Assembly (NCBI RefSeq): GCF_001435755.1 | Contig: NZ_AZFI01000004.1 | Coordinates: 1-36,219 of the forward strand | Length of the DNA stretch: 36,219 nt | Source: Ligilactobacillus acidipiscis DSM 15836 | Lineage (GTDB): Bacteria > Bacillota > Bacilli > Lactobacillales > Lactobacillaceae | Direction: 5' to 3' | Shown: one piece after another, positions 2,440 through 23,175 of the stretch | Position numbering within the stretch: position 1 is the first letter of the stretch | Layout: every line of letters starts with the position of its first letter | Notes under the pieces: generated by a model | Seen by the model: only the letters and a program-made list of their open reading frames with translations | Databases searched by the model: none | Told to the model about the DNA's origin: nothing | Program-made: the position numbers and the translations under genes

Positions 2440-3330
2440 CTATGACGAGCGTGATAACTCCTTCTGCAACAAATCTACAATACTCTGTTCATCATCTGAC
2501 AATATCTTATTTTTACGATATGCAGTTGACATATAAAAAGTAGGCTGATCATCATCTAATAGGGTCAATGAATGTACTTGATCCGTTTTGGAAATAGCTG
2601 ATTCTGTCAAAAAACCAATGCCGACGTTTTCGGCCACTAATGACTTCAAAATATGAATATCAGTCGTCGGATAAACAATGTGCGGTCGATAATGCGCATG
2701 GTGACTGACCTGCTTTAATGCCTTACCATGCACAAAGCCTTTGTCCAAAACTATAAAATTCTCATTTTTCAATTCGCTAAAATTGATTTCATCTTTTTGT
2801 GCTAAAGGATTGTTTTTAGAAACAATGATCTTAAATTTCGACTCGTCAAACAGCTCGACCTTTAAAACATCATCAATAACAGGAGACAGCGAGCTCAGTA
2901 AGGCTATATCTAAATCTCCTTTTTCTAAACGCAGGCGTAAATCAGCAGATCCAGCTTCGACAGTTTCGATCTTGTTGATCAATTTACTGCGAAATAAATC
3001 TGGCGATATCTTAGGAAAATAATAATTACCAATTATTGGCGGTAAACCCAATCTGACTTTACCAGATGTCATTTGAGCCAATTCTTTTTTGGCTATTCCT
3101 AATTCAGTCAACATATTTTGTGCATGGATCAATAATTGTGAACCTTGCCTAGTAGGTTCCAATCTTTGATGCGAATGATCACGAATAAATAACCTAGCAC
3201 CAAATTCGTTTTCTAACCGTTTGATCGCCAAAGTAATGGTTGGTTGTGAAACGTTCTTTTCCATAGCGGCCTTAGAAAAATTTTTTTCATCAAAAACTGC
3301 TACAAAATATTCTAGATCTTTCACATTCAT
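2440..3330 (-). CDS. mleR: LysR-family regulator of the malolactic genes
   Basis: A 296-residue LysR-type regulator. The N-terminal winged helix-turn-helix (residues about 1-60, MNVKDLEYFVAVFDEKNFSKAA...SQPTITLAIKRLE) is followed by a two-lobed periplasmic-binding-like effector domain. It is transcribed away from mleS, with about 600 bases between the genes, the standard arrangement for MleR and its malolactic target. By homology it activates mleSP in response to L-malate. The sequence itself shows family and context, not the ligand. The start follows GGAGGGG. Confidence 0.85.
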   Translation of the reverse strand: MNVKDLEYFVAVFDEKNFSKAAMEKNVSQPTITLAIKRLENEFGARLFIRDHSHQRLEPTRQGSQLLIHAQNMLTELGIAKKELAQMTSGKVRLGLPPIIGNYYFPKISPDLFRSKLINKIETVEAGSADLRLRLEKGDLDIALLSSLSPVIDDVLKVELFDESKFKIIVSKNNPLAQKDEINFSELKNENFIVLDKGFVHGKALKQVSHHAHYRPHIVYPTTDIHILKSLVAENVGIGFLTESAISKTDQVHSLTLLDDDQPTFYMSTAYRKNKILSDDEQSIVDLLQKELSRSS

Positions 3331-3526
3331 TTTAGCCCCTCCATATCAGCTTTTTTCTGCTGCCCATTAACATTTTTTATAAGTAACTTAAGATTTGACT
3401 ATAATTTTAACACACTACTATACTAAGAATCGTTCAAAAGGTTGAGAACAACAAATTAACCTTTTAAGTTTTAACAAATAGGAGCTAATTTTTAGTCAAC
3501 TTAGGTTACTGAGTCAAGTTGGGTGT
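3331..3526. promoter_or_regulatory. mleR-mle intergenic control region with inverted repeat
   Basis: There is no gene in these bases. They hold a perfect inverted repeat AAAAGGTT/AACCTTTT with a 14-base spacer (3436-3465). This could be a terminator-like hairpin or a regulator site. The LysR binding site and the mleR and mleS promoters should lie here, but I could not assign them firmly. The structured tandem repeats begin immediately downstream. Confidence 0.45.
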
Positions 3527-3653
3527 TTCGCTTTGTTTTTATAGTTGAGCTGCACAACTCAGAAGATTCCGCTTATCACACCTCAAGCTCACAGCGCTGA
3601 GACCCGCGCTATAAGCCTGATGTCAGATAATGCTCATCTTCTAAACAAGTTGT
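3527..3653 (+). repeat. structured repeat, diverged tandem unit 1
   Basis: First and most diverged of three tandem units before mleS. It keeps the family layout: TTTTTATAGTTGAGCTGC at the 5' side, then arms CAACT/AGTTG and AGAAGAT/ATCTTCT that can pair across about 95 bases, and the 3' motif GATAATGCTCATCTTCT. The inner loop sequence differs from units 2 and 3 (AGCGC/GCGCT instead of ATGC/GCAT), but pairing is kept, which suggests the RNA or DNA fold is selected. Confidence 0.7.
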
Positions 3654-3776
3654 TCCACTCTGTTTTTATAGTCGAGTTGCGTGAACCAGAAAGCTCCGCC
3701 TATCTCACTCTAACCTTCAATGCTAAAAACGCATTAAAGGTTAGACTATGATAGTGCTCACTTTCTCCCTGTTCAC
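3654..3776 (+). repeat. structured repeat, tandem unit 2 (123 bp)
   Basis: A 123-bp unit that can fold into one long imperfect hairpin. Nested arms are GTGAAC/GTTCAC, AGAAAG/CTTTCT, CTATC/GATAG, CTAACCTT/AAGGTTAG and ATGC/GCAT around a TAAAAAC loop. It differs from unit 3 at five positions by eye. It lies in the leader or promoter region of mleS and is not coding. Confidence 0.85.
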
Positions 3777-3899
3777 TCCACTCTGTTTTCATAGTCGAGC
3801 TGCGTGAACCAGAAAGCTCCGCCTATCTCACTCCAACCTTCAATGCTAAAGACGCATTAAAGGTTAGACTATGATAGTGCTCACTTTCTCCCAGTTCAC
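3777..3899 (+). repeat. structured repeat, tandem unit 3 (123 bp)
   Basis: A near-identical copy of the preceding unit in direct tandem. A further 13 bases of a fourth unit (TCCACTCTGTTTT) follow, before the mleS ribosome binding site. One of the five differences (C for T in the CTAACCTT arm) weakens an outer pair only. The very high similarity points to recent duplication. Confidence 0.85.
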
Positions 3900-3930
3900 T
3901 CCACTCTGTTTTATAATAGGAGGTTTTATC

Positions 3931-5556
3931 ATGGAAAATGCACAAAATATTTTAAACGATCCCTTCAAAAACAAGGGCACCGCATTTACTAACGAAGAGA
4001 GAGAAAAATATGGTTTAATAGGCACTCTTCCTCCTCGTGTTCAAACTTTAGCTGAACAAGAAAAACAGGCTTATAACCAATTTAAGAGCAAGGATTCCGC
4101 CCTCGAACAACGACTGTTTTTAATGAATATTTTCAATACTAATCGGACTCTTTTCTATTCTTTAATGGGTAAACACATTACTGAATTTATGCCCGTTGTT
4201 TACGACCCAACAATAGCTGATTCTATCGAACAATATGGACAATTATTCGTGGATCCGCAATATGCTGCCTTTTTGTCGATCGATGATCCTGATCATGTGA
4301 AAGATGCCCTGGCAAATGCTGCCGGCGACCGCGACATTCGTTTGATAGTTGTCACAGACTCACAAGGTATTCTTGGCATTGGCGACTGGGGCGTTAACGG
4401 TGTAGACATCGCCGTTGGTAAATTGATGGTTTATACTGCTGCTGCAGGTGTTGATCCTTCTCAAGTACTGCCAGTTGTTTTAGATGTCGGAACTGATAAT
4501 CAACAATTACTAGATGATCCTGAATATCTGGGCAATCGGCATTCACGAGTCCAAGGGAAAGACTATTTAGATTTTGTTGATAAGTTCGTCTCAACTTCCA
4601 CTGCATTATTCCCTGAAGCTTTACTTCACTTTGAAGACTTTGGACGTGCCAATGCTTCTGTTCTCTTGGATAAATATCAAGATCAAATCTTGACTTTTAA
4701 TGATGATATCCAAGGAACAGGGATCATCTCCCTAGCTGGTGTTTTAGGTGCTTTAAATATTTCCGGTGAAAAAATTACTGACCAGAAATTCTTAACATTT
4801 GGTGCTGGTACTGCCGGTGTCGGCATTGCTTCAATGCTTTATGATGAATTAGTGCGTGCCGGTTTGTCTTCAGAAGAAGCTAAAAAACATTTTTATCTCG
4901 TTGATAAACAAGGTCTATTATTCGAAGACACACCTGACTTAACAGATGGGCAAAAGAAGTTTACACGTTCACGTTCTGAATTTGACAATTCTTCTGAATT
5001 AACAGATCTTTATTCTGTTGTTAAAGCTATTCATCCGACAGTTATGATCGGTACTTCCACACAACCAGGTGCATTTACTAAAGAAGTTGTTCAGGAAATG
5101 GCACAACATACAGAGTGTCCAATTATTTTCCCATTGTCCAACCCAACCAAACTTGCAGAAGCTAAAGTACAAGATCTGATCGAATGGACACAAGGAAAGG
5201 CCTTGGTTGCTACAGGGATCCCAGCAGGTTTTGTAGAATATAATGGAGTCAGCTATGAGATCGGCCAAGCTAATAATGCCCTTGTTTATCCTGGTGTCGG
5301 CTTTGGCGCCATTGCTGTTGGTTCTAAGATCATTAATGAAAAAATGCTTGCTAAAGCCAGCCATGCTTTAGGCGGTATCGTTGATACAACTAAAGCAGGA
5401 GCTGCCGTATTACCGCCAGTTTCTAAATTAGAAGAATTCTCAACAACCGTTGCAGAGGTTGTTGCACAAAGCGCCATTGACCAAGGATTAGCTAAAGACG
5501 GTATCACTGATGCTAAAAAAGCTGTTCGTGCTACCAAGTGGACACCAAAATACTAA
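3931..5556 (+). CDS. mleS: malolactic enzyme
   Basis: A 541-residue NAD- and Mn-dependent malolactic enzyme of the malic enzyme family. It decarboxylates L-malate to L-lactate and CO2 in the cytoplasm, raising pH and generating proton motive force. Seen in the sequence: the N-terminal malic domain with [15 protein letters not shown] and [10 protein letters not shown], the FNDDIQGTG motif with metal-binding aspartates, and the nucleotide-binding [10 protein letters not shown]. The ATG at 3931 is chosen because AGGAGG precedes it by 7 bases and it gives the usual family length. An in-frame upstream ATG at 3871 lies within the tandem repeat and lacks a ribosome binding site. The malate transporter gene mleP follows, so the pair forms an operon under MleR. 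Confidence 0.96.
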
Positions 5557-5590
5557 AATCATAAAATCTAAAAAAGAAGGTAAGCAGATA

Positions 5591-6561
5591 ATGTCTGTAT
5601 TTCTAACGTCTGTTTCCAGCGTTGTCGTGATCGTTTTGATCGTGGCCTTGGGATATTTACTAAAAAAATATAATTGGGTCGGTGATTCATTTGGAAGTGA
5701 AATCTCTTCAATAATTACCAAGATCGCTTTACCGGCTTCAATTTTTACCGTAGTTATGAAAAATTTGACTAGGTCAAGTCTGATCAGTCTCTCAACGGAA
5801 TTAGTTTTCCCGGTTTTGGGTGTTGTGATCGGCTATGTTATAGCTTGGATAATGGTCAAAGTCTTCAAGATCAAACGTGGTCGCCGCGGGATCTTCATCA
5901 ATGCCTTTGTTAACGCCAATACCATCTTTATCGGAATGCCTTTAATATGACTCTCTTTGGTGATAAGGCGATGTCATATTTTTTGATCTACTATATCGTT
6001 AATACAGTTTCAACCTGGGCATTCGGCGTATTCTTGATTCAAAATGATGACCCAACGGTCGATAAATCTGCTCAAAAAAAGCACAATAAGATCAACTGGA
6101 AAAAAATCTTGCCAATGCCGCTTGTCGGTTTTATAGTGGCCATCGTTTGGATGCTGTTAAGCATTCCAGTTCCAAACTTTTTGGGTCAAACTCTAAATTA
6201 TGTTGGTTCACTGGTTACTCCACTTTCCCTAATTTATATCGGGATCGTCTTGTATAACGCTAGTTTAAAAAACTTCCACTTCGAACGTGATTCTGTTCTA
6301 GCTTTGATCGGACGTTTTATCTTGTCACCGCTTGTCTTGATTATTTTGATCAAGATCGGTGCTTCGACCGGTTTTTCAATGCCAAGTCTGATGAGCCAAA
6401 CATTGGTCGTTCAATCAGCAACACCTATGTTGGCTGTTTTGCCGATCTTAGCAAATGAAGCTCATGGCGACGTTAAATATGCAACTGATGTTGTTGTTAT
6501 GAGTACTGTATTGTTCATAGTCGTTGTACCTATTTTGATGACTATTTTACAATTTATCTAA
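5591..6561 (+). pseudogene. mleP: malate permease (AEC family), interrupted by a 1-base frameshift
   Basis: An auxin-efflux-carrier family transporter with about ten membrane segments that takes up malate for MleS. The first part (from ATG 5591, after AAGAAGG) encodes MSVFLTSVSSVVVIVLIV...NTIFIGMPL and stops at 5950. The second part resumes in another frame with MTLFGDKAMSYFLIYYIVNT and runs to a normal end. Reading TTTAAATATG instead of TTTAATATG near 5941-5949 would restore GMPLNMTLFGDKA, the usual family sequence, so a single A appears to be missing. It could be a real inactivating mutation or a sequencing error. The resulting ATGA stop/start overlap could allow split translation, but a working two-part permease is unlikely. 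Confidence 0.85.
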
Positions 6562-6592: not shown

Positions 6593-6645
6593 AAAAAAAG
6601 ACTGCTATCGTACGGACATATGATCCATACGGTAACAGTCTTTTT
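6593..6645. terminator. bidirectional terminator between mleP and lacD
   Basis: AAAAAGACTGCTATCGTACGGA pairs with TCCATACGGTAACAGTCTTTTT around a 7-base loop, with a few mismatches. T runs lie on both strands, so it can end mleSP from the left and the lacR-lacABD transcript from the right. Confidence 0.85.
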
Positions 6646-6737
6646 GGTCAGGCTATGACAAGACAAGTAAGAAGCTTCGTCTATCTAACTCCAACATCAC
6701 AGAGTTATAAATCACTCGTTACTTGCTTGTTGTTACC
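6645..6737 (+). repeat. structured repeat, short dispersed copy
   Basis: The stretch GAAGCTTCGTCTATCTAACT then CCAAC closely matches GAAAGCTCCGCCTATCTCACTCCAAC of the tandem units. The flanks ACAAGACAAGTAA and TTACTTGCTTGT can pair, keeping the long-hairpin layout with a shortened core (AACTC/GAGTT). It sits between the convergent ends of mleP and lacD and is not coding. Confidence 0.65.
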
Positions 6738-19669: not shown

Positions 19670-19720
19670 AAAAACATAAAATCGCTACAACTTAAGAAAT
19701 ACTAATAAATAAAAGAATGT

Positions 19721-19840
19721 TTGGTTAGGAACTGTGAAACAGAAAGCCCTGTTTATCCAGCTCGGAGCTGGCCGTGCAAAAACGCACTATAAGGTTCGAG
19801 TCCGATAATGCACGTTGTCTCCCAAATTTCTCTACCCTGT
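19721..19840 (+). repeat. structured repeat copy between phnC and phnD
   Basis: It aligns with the mleS-leader units: CTGTGAAACAGAAAGCCC matches CTGCGTGAACCAGAAAGCTCC, the GTGC/GCAC stem with an AAAAAC loop replaces ATGC/GCAT, and GATAATGCACGTTGTCTCCC matches GATAGTGCTCACTTTCTCCC. It ends with CCTGTTTTT three bases before the phnD stop. The orientation is opposite to the phn genes. A CCAGCT/AGCTGG hairpin sits in the middle. Confidence 0.7.
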
Positions 19841-19842
19841 TT

Positions 19843-20775
19843 TTATTTATCCAGTTTTTCTGCTGTTTTATCGTATTCACGGATTATATCAAAATTGCTA
19901 TCCTTGGAATCTGCATAACCTTCATGGGAATAAACACTTGATACAATGTCATGACCCTTTTTAGTTTTGGCGATATCCTTAAATGCTTTAGCGATCTTCT
20001 TTTGCCATTTTCCATCCATATCTCCACGGACGGTAATAGTATCATTCGGGATCTTTTTAGTAGTATAGATCGGAACAACTTTATCATTAACATCGGGTGC
20101 GTCTTTTTTGACCAAATTACGTGCACTTTGGAAAACAAAAGCAGCATCAGTATTCTTGTTGTAAACAGACAGAACTCCTTGATCATGTCCTTTTACCTGT
20201 GCTGTTTTAATACCATTTTTGTTAATATTCACGCCATGTTTATACATTTCAACCGCAGGGAAGATCCATCCGGCAGTTGATGTTGTATCTTGAACAGCAA
20301 TTTTCTTACCCTTAAGATCGTCTAACGTTTTTATACCGCTATCCTTACGTACCAAGATCTGTGAACGATAGTAATCAACATTCTTGCTGCCTGGATGATC
20401 ATCTTTTCCGAGGACTTCTTTACGTTCAGCCTGTAAAATAGCCTTGGCATTATTTTGTTTATGTGCCAAAACATAAGCATCTGGCGGCAAGAAACCTACA
20501 TCAACTTTTTTGGAACCCATTGCTTCCACAATAGTATTGTAATCAGTCGAAACACTAACCTTCACTGGGATACCTAACTGCTTTTTTAATAATTTTTCCA
20601 AAGGCTTAGCCTTAGCTTCGATCGTTGTTGCATTGGACGAAGGCACAAACTGGACCGTTAATTCTTTAGGCTTATATGTATCTGAATCTTTGGAGCTTTT
20701 ATTACCGCACGCTGCCAAACTAACTGCACACAAGAGTCCAGACGCGACAATTGCAGCTTTTTTAAAAAACTTCAT
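19843..20775 (-). CDS. phnD: phosphonate-type ABC transporter substrate-binding lipoprotein
   Basis: A 310-residue lipoprotein. The signal peptide MKFFKKAAIVASGLLCAVSL ends in a lipobox (LAAC), so it is anchored to the outer face of the membrane. The mature part is a PhnD-type two-lobed binding protein, with LTVQFVPSSNA, VDVGFLPPDAYVLA and KGKKIAVQDTTSTAGW motifs. The start at 20775 follows GGGGGAA and gives a normal signal peptide; an ATG at 20823 would add 16 non-signal residues. It is the first gene of the operon. The ligand may be a phosphonate, phosphite or phosphate ester. No C-P lyase or phosphonatase gene is nearby. Confidence 0.93.
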   Translation of the reverse strand: MKFFKKAAIVASGLLCAVSLAACGNKSSKDSDTYKPKELTVQFVPSSNATTIEAKAKPLEKLLKKQLGIPVKVSVSTDYNTIVEAMGSKKVDVGFLPPDAYVLAHKQNNAKAILQAERKEVLGKDDHPGSKNVDYYRSQILVRKDSGIKTLDDLKGKKIAVQDTTSTAGWIFPAVEMYKHGVNINKNGIKTAQVKGHDQGVLSVYNKNTDAAFVFQSARNLVKKDAPDVNDKVVPIYTTKKIPNDTITVRGDMDGKWQKKIAKAFKDIAKTKKGHDIVSSVYSHEGYADSKDSNFDIIREYDKTAEKLDK

Positions 20776-20828
20776 TCGAAATTCCCCCACTTCGGTTTGT
20801 CTAATATGAACCTCTACTTCCAAAAGCT

Positions 20829-22575: not shown

Positions 22576-23025
22576 TTATTGTTCAGTAATGTGAACCCGG
22601 ATCTTCGAAGAAACATCATTGTGCAACTTAACCGGCACATTAGCATACCCCATTGAACGGATGGGTTCTTTTAATTCCATTTTACGTTTATCGATCTTAA
22701 TTCCATACTGTTTTTGTAAACCTTGAGCGATCTGCTTAGATGTAACTGAACCAAACAACCGCCCATCTTTGCCAGCTTTGGCTTTCAATTCAACCACATA
22801 CTTGCCAGATTCAAGTTTTTCTTTAAGATCCTTAGCTTCAGCAATGATCTCTGCTTCTTTTTTAGCCTCAGCATGTTGCTGACCCTTTAACTTGCTCATC
22901 GCAGCAGCACTGGCTTGTTTGGCTTTATTATTTTTAATCAAGAAGTTAGCATAACCGTCTGGGATCTCTTTAACTTCTCCACGTTTACCTTTATTTCGCA
23001 CATCTTGTGTAAAAATAACTTTCAT
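22576..23025 (-). CDS. rplI: 50S ribosomal protein L9
   Basis: A 149-residue ribosomal protein L9 of normal length. The N-terminal domain (MKVIFTQDVRNKGKRGEVKEIPDGYANFLI) binds 23S rRNA; a long helix and a C-terminal domain (DGRLFGSVTSKQIAQGL) follow. The ATG at 23025 is preceded by TAGGAGGT. A longer frame (to 23067) has no support and overlaps the structured repeat. The leader contains one copy of the repeat family that also precedes mleS. Confidence 0.97.
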   Translation of the reverse strand: MKVIFTQDVRNKGKRGEVKEIPDGYANFLIKNNKAKQASAAAMSKLKGQQHAEAKKEAEIIAEAKDLKEKLESGKYVVELKAKAGKDGRLFGSVTSKQIAQGLQKQYGIKIDKRKMELKEPIRSMGYANVPVKLHNDVSSKIRVHITEQ

Positions 23026-23040
23026 CAAAATACCTCCTAA

Positions 23041-23165
23041 AATAACAGAGCGACGGAAGACTGGCACTATCGACTATCATGTTACAACACATCTTTTTAG
23101 CATCATGGTACGAGAGTCGGCTAGATCATTAACAAAATCTCTTGTCTTCCAAAATTCGACTAATA
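23041..23165 (-). repeat. structured repeat in the rplI leader
   Basis: On the minus strand it starts with TAGTCGA, has the family core GATGCTAAAAA, and ends with CATGATAGTCGATAGTGCC then GTCTTCC and CGCTCTGTTATTTT. These match AATGCTAAAAAC, CTATGATAGTGCTCACTTTCT and CCACTCTGTTTT of the mleS units. The outer arms GGAAGAC/GTCTTCC and inner arms CGACT/AGTCG pair, though their sequences differ from other copies. It lies just ahead of the rplI ribosome binding site. Confidence 0.7.
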
Positions 23166-23175
23166 ACAGCGTAGA

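Follow-up and report, generated by a model that had tools for sequence, protein, structure and literature searches.

Tandem Repeats in Front of mleS of Ligilactobacillus acidipiscis Are Members of an Apparently Undescribed Family of Folding DNA Repeats in Lactic Acid Bacteria

The three tandem units located in front of mleS in Ligilactobacillus acidipiscis DSM 15836 are members of an apparently undescribed family of folding DNA repeats, which is present in many lactic acid bacteria. Copies of this family are spread through genomes and often stand in tandem, and we consider it probable that this family consists of structured mobile repeats of the Lactobacillales, which are dispersed, non-autonomous and strand-specific, and that the mle triplication is one of its arrays. 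In this case, many lactobacilli from food and the gut would have a conspicuous noncoding feature that went undescribed, with dozens of copies per genome and a fold strongly selected on one strand, and the ends of many mRNAs would have been rewritten, in some species including that of mleS. It would also mean that there is an insertion rule tied to stop codons which the mobilisers tested do not explain, and the family would be well suited for studying how gene ends are recognised by a small noncoding element.

Materials and Methods

The window is the whole stretch of DNA analysed here, 36,219 nt from the genome of L. acidipiscis DSM 15836 (own genome, G000). Other genomes that are referred to by name are Levilactobacillus fuyuanensis (G063), Liquorilactobacillus oeni (G077), Ligilactobacillus salitolerans (G008) and L. 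pabuli (G007). The alignment A1 consists of 25 aligned units of the own genome, which were folded to 42 pairs, and is the basis of the covariance model R1, so that the model derives from G000 only. A2 holds 145 rows from 26 genomes with the own genome excluded, and A4 holds 102 matches, one per row, from 79 of 80 named-contig loci.

Architecture and Fold of the Repeat Units

The initial annotation had described a tandem triplication in the gap between mleR and mleS, and our analysis confirmed three head-to-tail units together with an extra edge of 13 bases (Table 1). In detail, the direct repeats at 3654-3776 and 3777-3899 are 96% identical, and the diverged unit spans 3527-3653, with its stretch 3524-3581 being 74% and 69% identical to the counterparts in the other two units. 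The sequence TCCACTCTGTTTT is present at 3654, 3777 and 3900. The 13 bases at 3900-3912 had been taken as the start of a fourth unit; they are indeed a repeat, but on the minus strand, where the array reads from 3912 to 3527, they form the 5′ edge of the first unit. A unit of the family has a length of about 125 nt. Most of it is a hairpin of about 96 nt with GAGC/GCTC as its closing helix; this is preceded by a short 5′ edge, which reads AAAACAGAGYGGA in Ligilactobacillus, and followed by a short linker on the 3′ side.

Table 1. Coordinates of the mle array, its neighbouring genes and signals, and further family copies in the window.
Feature	Position	Strand	Evidence and remarks
LysR-type regulator gene, divergent, mleR position	2440..3330	-	LysR-family matches; 0 of the best 25 over their own cut-off
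Probable mleS promoter, TTGACT-18-TATACT	3395..3424	+	Consensus match; conserved in G016, G017 and G008; upstream of all units
Edge-like sequence AAAACAAAGCGAA, 3′ closing end of the array	3527..3539	-	
Third, diverged unit, RNA orientation	3540..3666	-	130.1 bits for 3527-3666
Second unit, RNA orientation	3667..3789	-	96% identical to the first; 134.6 bits for 3654-3789
First unit, RNA orientation	3790..3912	-	5′ edge 3912-3900, hairpin, linker GCAGCTCGACTATG; 131.9 bits for 3777-3912; unit 3 of the initial annotation displaced by the 13-base edge
Shine-Dalgarno sequence AGGAGG of mleS	3918..3923	+	5 nt from the array edge
mleS, malolactic enzyme	3931..5556	+	NF041582, 969 bits (cut-off 850)
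Decayed family copy	19711..19843	-	38.5 bits; 5′ edge on the stop codon of ORF 19843-20823 (-)
Weak, decayed family copy	23042..23175	+	21.3 bits, E 0.065 (E 0.0046 in another search); adjoins the Shine-Dalgarno site of ORF 22576-23067 (-)

Each unit of the mle array forms one long nested hairpin that folds better than expected by chance, and the initial proposal of a single long hairpin with nested arms was confirmed by MFE values and z-scores on both strands. For the three units the MFE amounts to -32.6, -36.3 and -32.3 kcal/mol on the plus strand (z -2.5, -6.4 and -4.2) and to -49.5, -51.8 and -54.5 kcal/mol on the minus strand (z -5.5, -8.3 and -7.4). The better-folding strand is the minus strand, which is opposite to the mleS mRNA.

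Pairing that persists while the sequence changes, as suggested for the diverged unit, is a property of the family as a whole: a check set beforehand on homologous copies revealed conserved pairing with compensatory changes. In A1, double-sided changes are found in 36 of the 42 pairs. For A2 and A4, whose counts lean towards the model because both alignments were fitted to it, the values were compared with shuffled data. In A2, 94.5% of the cells are paired (60.3% when shuffled) and the covariation score is 0.852 (0.211); the double-sided changes in 39 of 42 pairs are a weak measure alone, as the shuffled mean is 36.4 and 3 of 500 shuffles were as high. A4, which contains sequences outside model building, gave 95.1% paired cells versus 63.1%, a score of 0.782 versus 0.185 and double-sided changes in 40 of 42 pairs versus 32.9; on all five measures every one of the 500 shuffles stayed below the value observed, and the highest score of slid structures was 0.112.

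Furthermore, G-U outnumbers A-C in A2 (394 versus 77 cells, with one fixed G·U pair left out), and by this count the modelled strand is favoured in 119 rows and the opposite one in 8, with 18 rows tied. A lower folding energy of the modelled strand was obtained for 284 of 301 units (A1 25/25, A2 136/143, A3 26/33, A4 97/100), a count from which 7 short or N-holding rows were left out and in which two units of G109/G110 (L479, L480) are counted twice. Strand polarity is somewhat favoured in these comparisons because the matches and strand counts come from a strand-fixing model; the mle units of the window show the minus-strand polarity without any model. The fixed G·U pair is present in 132 of 142 rows with both letters, and bases of the internal loop are fixed as well. 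We conclude that in this family one strand is under selection for its fold.

With regard to the closing helix, the GAGC of the 5′ edge pairs with the GCTC after the hairpin. A pairing of GCTC with the downstream GAGC was rejected: among 12 units with differing copies the upstream copy pairs better in 8 and the downstream copy in none, and if only Watson-Crick pairs are considered for the GAGC copies of the same 12 units, upstream is better in 8 and downstream in 1. As a separate observation, the second unit contains a promoter-like match on the minus strand (window 3775-3748, TGAACA-16-TATCAT, 9/12), which points in the direction of the element's RNA.

Dispersal Within and Beyond the Own Genome

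The view that the units are peculiar to mle did not hold, as they are members of a genome-wide repeat family. A DNA search of G000 with one unit yielded 31 matches at E ≤ 10, many of them weak or partial, an iterated profile on the G000 loci added further tandem units, and R1 gave 103 matches at E ≤ 0.1, a number that includes fragments as well as neighbours that overlap. With the two weakest matches omitted, 101 of the 103 fall into 70 arrays, 47 single, 17 double, 4 triple and 2 quadruple; flanks are available for 54 of the 70. Successive units are spaced by 119-128 bp (22 pairs in 16 multi-unit arrays with 38 units), and the median identity is 0.70 for neighbouring units versus 0.64 for units of different arrays. 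As 4 of the 22 neighbour pairs share at least 90% identity, some arrays grew by local duplication. Several copies are located at contig ends (C425, C44, C5, C48 and C63 of G000), and the family may contribute to the fragmentation of the G000 assembly into 457 contigs.

Under strict filters R1 matches were obtained in 27 of 100 genomes including the own one (26 of 99 others) and in 19 of 59 genera. This search undercounts, since a match in G059 is absent there and present in the search of family f3, and its few matches in G020 and G023 are doubtful. Rescoring of 21 matching genomes gave up to 55 matches per genome. At the level of families, matches are found in 12 of 18 genomes of f2 (E ≤ 0.001), in 7 of 36 genomes of f8 (E ≤ 0.01) and, with at most 4 matches each, in 6 of 39 genomes of f3, which we take to be the Enterococcaceae (E ≤ 0.01); none of the six genomes of f4, presumably the Streptococcaceae, had a match under strict filters. 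A pattern scan of named genomes revealed at least 119 stretches, and judged by their titles the 80 listed among them all belong to Lactobacillaceae, 'Lactobacillus' MAGs included. The named genera among these 80 loci are ten, i.e., Levilactobacillus, Lactiplantibacillus, Lacticaseibacillus, Lapidilactobacillus, Paucilactobacillus, Pediococcus, Liquorilactobacillus, Companilactobacillus, Periweissella and Ligilactobacillus, and R1 at E ≤ 1e-4 matches 79 of the 80 listed loci.

A plasmid- or phage-borne repeat was rejected, as blastn with the mle array gave no match to plasmids or phages at E ≤ 1e-5, a search that distant copies could escape. Similarly, viral carriage was discarded with R1 matching 0 of the 80 viral loci listed from a degenerate pattern scan. 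Many of these viral matches share a length of 58-59 bases and are perhaps one conserved viral sequence that is not part of the repeat family. A known Rfam RNA is ruled out by searches of the window and of 10 copy-bearing loci from other genomes: with Rfam 15 there is no match in the window at the gathering threshold, the only match at E ≤ 1 in 3400-3960 is sR2 with 15.3 bits (threshold 42), and the 10 other loci gave only a tRNA. Literature searches, which covered top-ranked and openly licensed papers, revealed no description of such a family in lactobacilli, which makes its novelty provisional, and the main text, as distinct from other parts, of two surveys of structured RNAs does not contain the string 'lactobacill' (PMC11109978, PMC8632094).

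Insertion Sites and Turnover

The 5′ edge of the family is locked to gene boundaries, namely to sense stop codons and to antisense Shine-Dalgarno sites, the latter mostly in Ligilactobacillus. The edge test comprised 263 arrays with flanks of sufficient length (own 42, A2 111, A3 24, A4 86), among which A2 and A4 may share loci and from which 27 arrays near sequence ends were excluded (own 12, A2 3, A3 2, A4 10). The 5′ edge coincides with a same-strand stop codon in 98 of them (own 13, A2 37, A3 13, A4 35), compared with 3 for the mirrored 3′ edge, which is the better control because the random-position null excludes coding positions. Among the remaining arrays, 31 have their 5′ edge -3 to +14 nt from an antisense Shine-Dalgarno site (own 16, A2 12, A3 1, A4 2; mirrored 3), and 134 of the 263 belong to neither class. 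In an earlier count of 153 arrays with other settings all 27 Shine-Dalgarno cases were from Ligilactobacillus, and 0 of 10 arrays of L. oeni fell into either class. Within the window, the array at mleS is a case of the Shine-Dalgarno class and the copy at 19711-19843 one of the stop-codon class.

After two arrays with identical flanks were dropped (261 arrays), the 96 edge stops comprise 62 TAA, 32 TAG and 2 TGA, versus 592 TAA, 253 TAG and 120 TGA in the background of long open frames from the same loci (n = 965). The stop codon at the edge is often composed of a T from the host and the element's own A(A/G), and T or TA is found at most 5′ edges. Terminator T-runs at the 5′ edge occur in 21 of 263 arrays versus 16 for the mirrored edge and are notable, by eye, only in Levilactobacillus fuyuanensis. 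This lock is unlike a random inserter, and it could also reflect selection. A more specific version, in which a structured RNA or single-stranded DNA moves throughout the Lactobacillales and inserts at the ends of translated regions, with its first base following the T of the stop codon, is tentative and in our estimate somewhat unlikely; homing to the ends of translated regions would imply a machinery that reads translation or transcript boundaries.

Selection by the host would account for the same positions in a different way. The units might be cis elements, which at stop codons serve as mRNA end protector, RNase III site or modulator of translation termination, and in front of Shine-Dalgarno sites, including that of mleS, as leader element. 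Their precise placement at both kinds of sites, the strand-specific conserved fold with its fixed internal-loop bases and fixed G·U pair, and the insertion between promoter and Shine-Dalgarno site at mle would be in line with such a role. We nevertheless regard it as unlikely, because the presence of the family is patchy (27 of 100 genomes), intact units are kept in G017 at only 2 of the 12 own loci compared, and the orientation in the stop context is opposite to that in the Shine-Dalgarno context, so that one RNA function cannot cover both.

Returning to the proposed mobile family, in the one species pair compared the sites persist, and most of their occupants have decayed or been replaced. 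This comparison included 12 own loci with flanks aligned on one contig of G017, with L127 left out as it lies at a contig end. Judged by eye, and with poor alignments for L134 and L172, 2 of the 12 loci are filled in both genomes (mle and C403:18027), and the remaining 10 are empty in G017 or contain a decayed remnant there. For the mle locus itself we compared the own pieces with 13 from G017 and 2 from G016, one piece of G016 being excluded. The own mle units 2 and 3 share an identity of 0.96 with each other and of at most 0.76 with everything else compared. For a mle unit of G017, the identity is 0.90 with an own unit from a different locus and 0.89 with a unit from a different array of G017, and the mle occupants of G017 and G000 are not most closely related to each other; judging from an identity of 0.87, one pair of mle units from G016 and G017 may be orthologous. 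A clean pair of empty and filled sites with aligned flanks was not obtained among these genomes, with G008 being free of units at mle.

Nearly identical copies at separate sites were found in Levilactobacillus fuyuanensis and in L. oeni. In the latter, 8 of 12 unit-bearing copies have a length of 168 bp including a fixed 3′ tail, and two further tails occur without a unit. Direct repeats at the edges of these 12 copies have 10 bases in one case, 6 bases in one and 4 bases in three. At L212 and other loci of L. oeni the 3′ tail ends with GACCCAGCC, often followed by TTTTTTG, as if it had its own terminator. The genome of Levilactobacillus fuyuanensis contains composite arrays (L183, L194, L199 and other loci), in which full units alternate with half-units; these consist of the 3′ part only plus a conserved GAGGCCGCATATTTCC-type tail, and many start directly after a terminator-like T-run.

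Mobilisation and Comparison with Known Repeats

Searches for Y1 transposases, IS630-type DDE_3 transposases and integron-type integrases revealed no mobiliser of the family, and the carrier searches leave all three candidates unsupported. In detail, an open copy of the Y1 transposase (PF01797) is present in 5 of 8 carriers, G000 has only fragments with stops, and G008 and G110 have none; the enzyme is also found in three non-carriers (G013, G019, G033). No match over cut-off was obtained in 12 carriers for DDE_3 (PF13358), with one weak match in G063, or for the integron-type integrase (TIGR02249), and weaker matches to other tyrosine recombinases are present in all 12 carriers as well as in 14 control genomes. 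A terminal inverted repeat was not detected beyond the 4-bp closing helix GAGC/GCTC in A1, and inspection of the consensus by eye revealed no GTAG or CGTC tag.

These results bear on the possibility that the family is an ordinary MITE- or REP-type element, which is mobilised in trans by a standard transposase, either IS630-like at TA or Y1/RAYT. Size, copy number and intergenic location would fit, as would T or TA at most 5′ edges, the near-identical recent copies and the open Y1 frame in 5 of 8 carriers. We consider this nonetheless very unlikely, given that a terminal inverted repeat is missing past the GAGC/GCTC helix, a consistent target duplication is not apparent in the 12 copies of L. 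oeni, DDE_3 exceeds the cut-off in none of the 12 carriers, and Y1 is absent from two carriers and present in three non-carriers.

For the dispersed structured family we propose instead that the folded single strand, either RNA or single-stranded DNA, might be recognised by a protein, which would copy units into A/T-rich targets, either at the edges of genes or next to copies already present. Head-to-tail arrays would then result from the entry of new units at or close to old edges, together with local duplication in some arrays.

Several known repeats share features with the family. EFAR elements are mosaic and target stem-loops. Compared by description only, EFAR/Efa-1 of Enterococcus faecalis are likewise stem-loops of comparable size that are interspersed between the genes of a lactic acid bacterium, whereas f3, presumably corresponding to this host group, has few matches to our family (6 of 39 genomes, at most 4 each). 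According to passages of the respective papers, Efa-1 has 163 bp, 65 copies and a double hairpin (PMC2267715), and EFAR is listed among MITEs (PMC3733652); the size of Efa-1 compares with the 168 bp of 8 of 12 L. oeni copies, conserved 3′ tail included. Small repeats are also known from Streptococcus pneumoniae as BOX, RUP and SPRITE, and according to passages of one study BOX consists of modules in variable number, and both BOX and RUP terminate in inverted repeats (PMC3049150). By description these elements resemble the mle family in being small, structured, clustered and located between genes, whereas, in contrast to BOX and RUP, each unit of the mle family is a complete hairpin, the units follow one another in direct tandem and the 5′ edge is locked, and six genomes of f4, which we take to be their host group, had no family match under strict filters.

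Like the mle family, REP/BIME sequences with their RAYT form strand-specific hairpins in intergenic regions. In E. coli, REPs are known to occur close to stop codons. REP/BIME are 20-40 bp long and alternating, in contrast to the direct units of about 125 nt in the mle family, which also has carriers lacking Y1 (G008, G110). The attC sites of integrons are hairpins folded from a single strand, with variable stems, and are located at stop codons. Carriers of the mle family differ in having no integron-type integrase over cut-off (0 of 12), and its arrays are also found in antisense orientation at Shine-Dalgarno sites. ERIC sequences are about 127 bp long and resemble the mle family in this size and in forming a stem-loop. 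Passages of one paper describe a stem-loop transcript and TA at the termini of ERIC (PMC2229807). In a comparison by description only, ERIC differs in its terminal inverted repeat, which was not found in the mle family, in its occurrence in different bacteria and in the TA duplication, which is not established in the mle family.

The Leader of mleS

The number of units at mle varies among relatives, as had been anticipated, and by eye amounts to 3, 2, 3 and 0 in G000, G016, G017 and G008. The corresponding distances from the -35 element to the ATG are 536, 502, 640 and 110 nt. A predicted promoter on the plus strand lies upstream of the units, and the scan revealed no plus-strand match inside or after the array. 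As this promoter match precedes all units and is kept in three relatives, the units are probably part of the leader of the mleS mRNA, and the array is most likely transcribed in its less stable orientation. An intrinsic terminator at mle was rejected, as the scan of 3330-3960 revealed no terminator-like site.

The initial annotation had gone further and suggested a structured leader of three hairpins dedicated to the control of mleS. Its first part, units within the leader, agrees with the probable promoter upstream; the second part, a dedicated malolactic device, conflicts with the same units standing at dozens of unrelated genes. The location between a conserved promoter match and the Shine-Dalgarno site, and units at mle in three species of Ligilactobacillus, would speak for such a device. 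Family matches are, however, restricted to 2 of 29 other mle loci (G016 and G017), which led us to reject an mle-specific leader, and furthermore the mle units of G000 and G017 are not mutual nearest relatives and the conserved strand is antisense to mleS. We thus consider a dedicated leader highly improbable. A host-selected role of the array at mleS is possible but unsupported. If the array belongs to a mobile repeat family, its insertion would have added about 400 nt to the leader, in which the element is oriented antisense to the mRNA, and a possible influence on mleS would be a by-product of the insertion.

Two minor observations concern the region downstream of mleS. On the minus strand of the gap between mleP and lacD (window 6636-6730) there is a partial and weak resemblance to the family (26 bits with the profile), for which the covariance model gave no match at E ≤ 0.1. 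The gene mleP, encoding a malate transporter of the auxin-efflux-carrier type (window 5510-6561), consists of two reading frames split near 5950 and is a single frame in G017.
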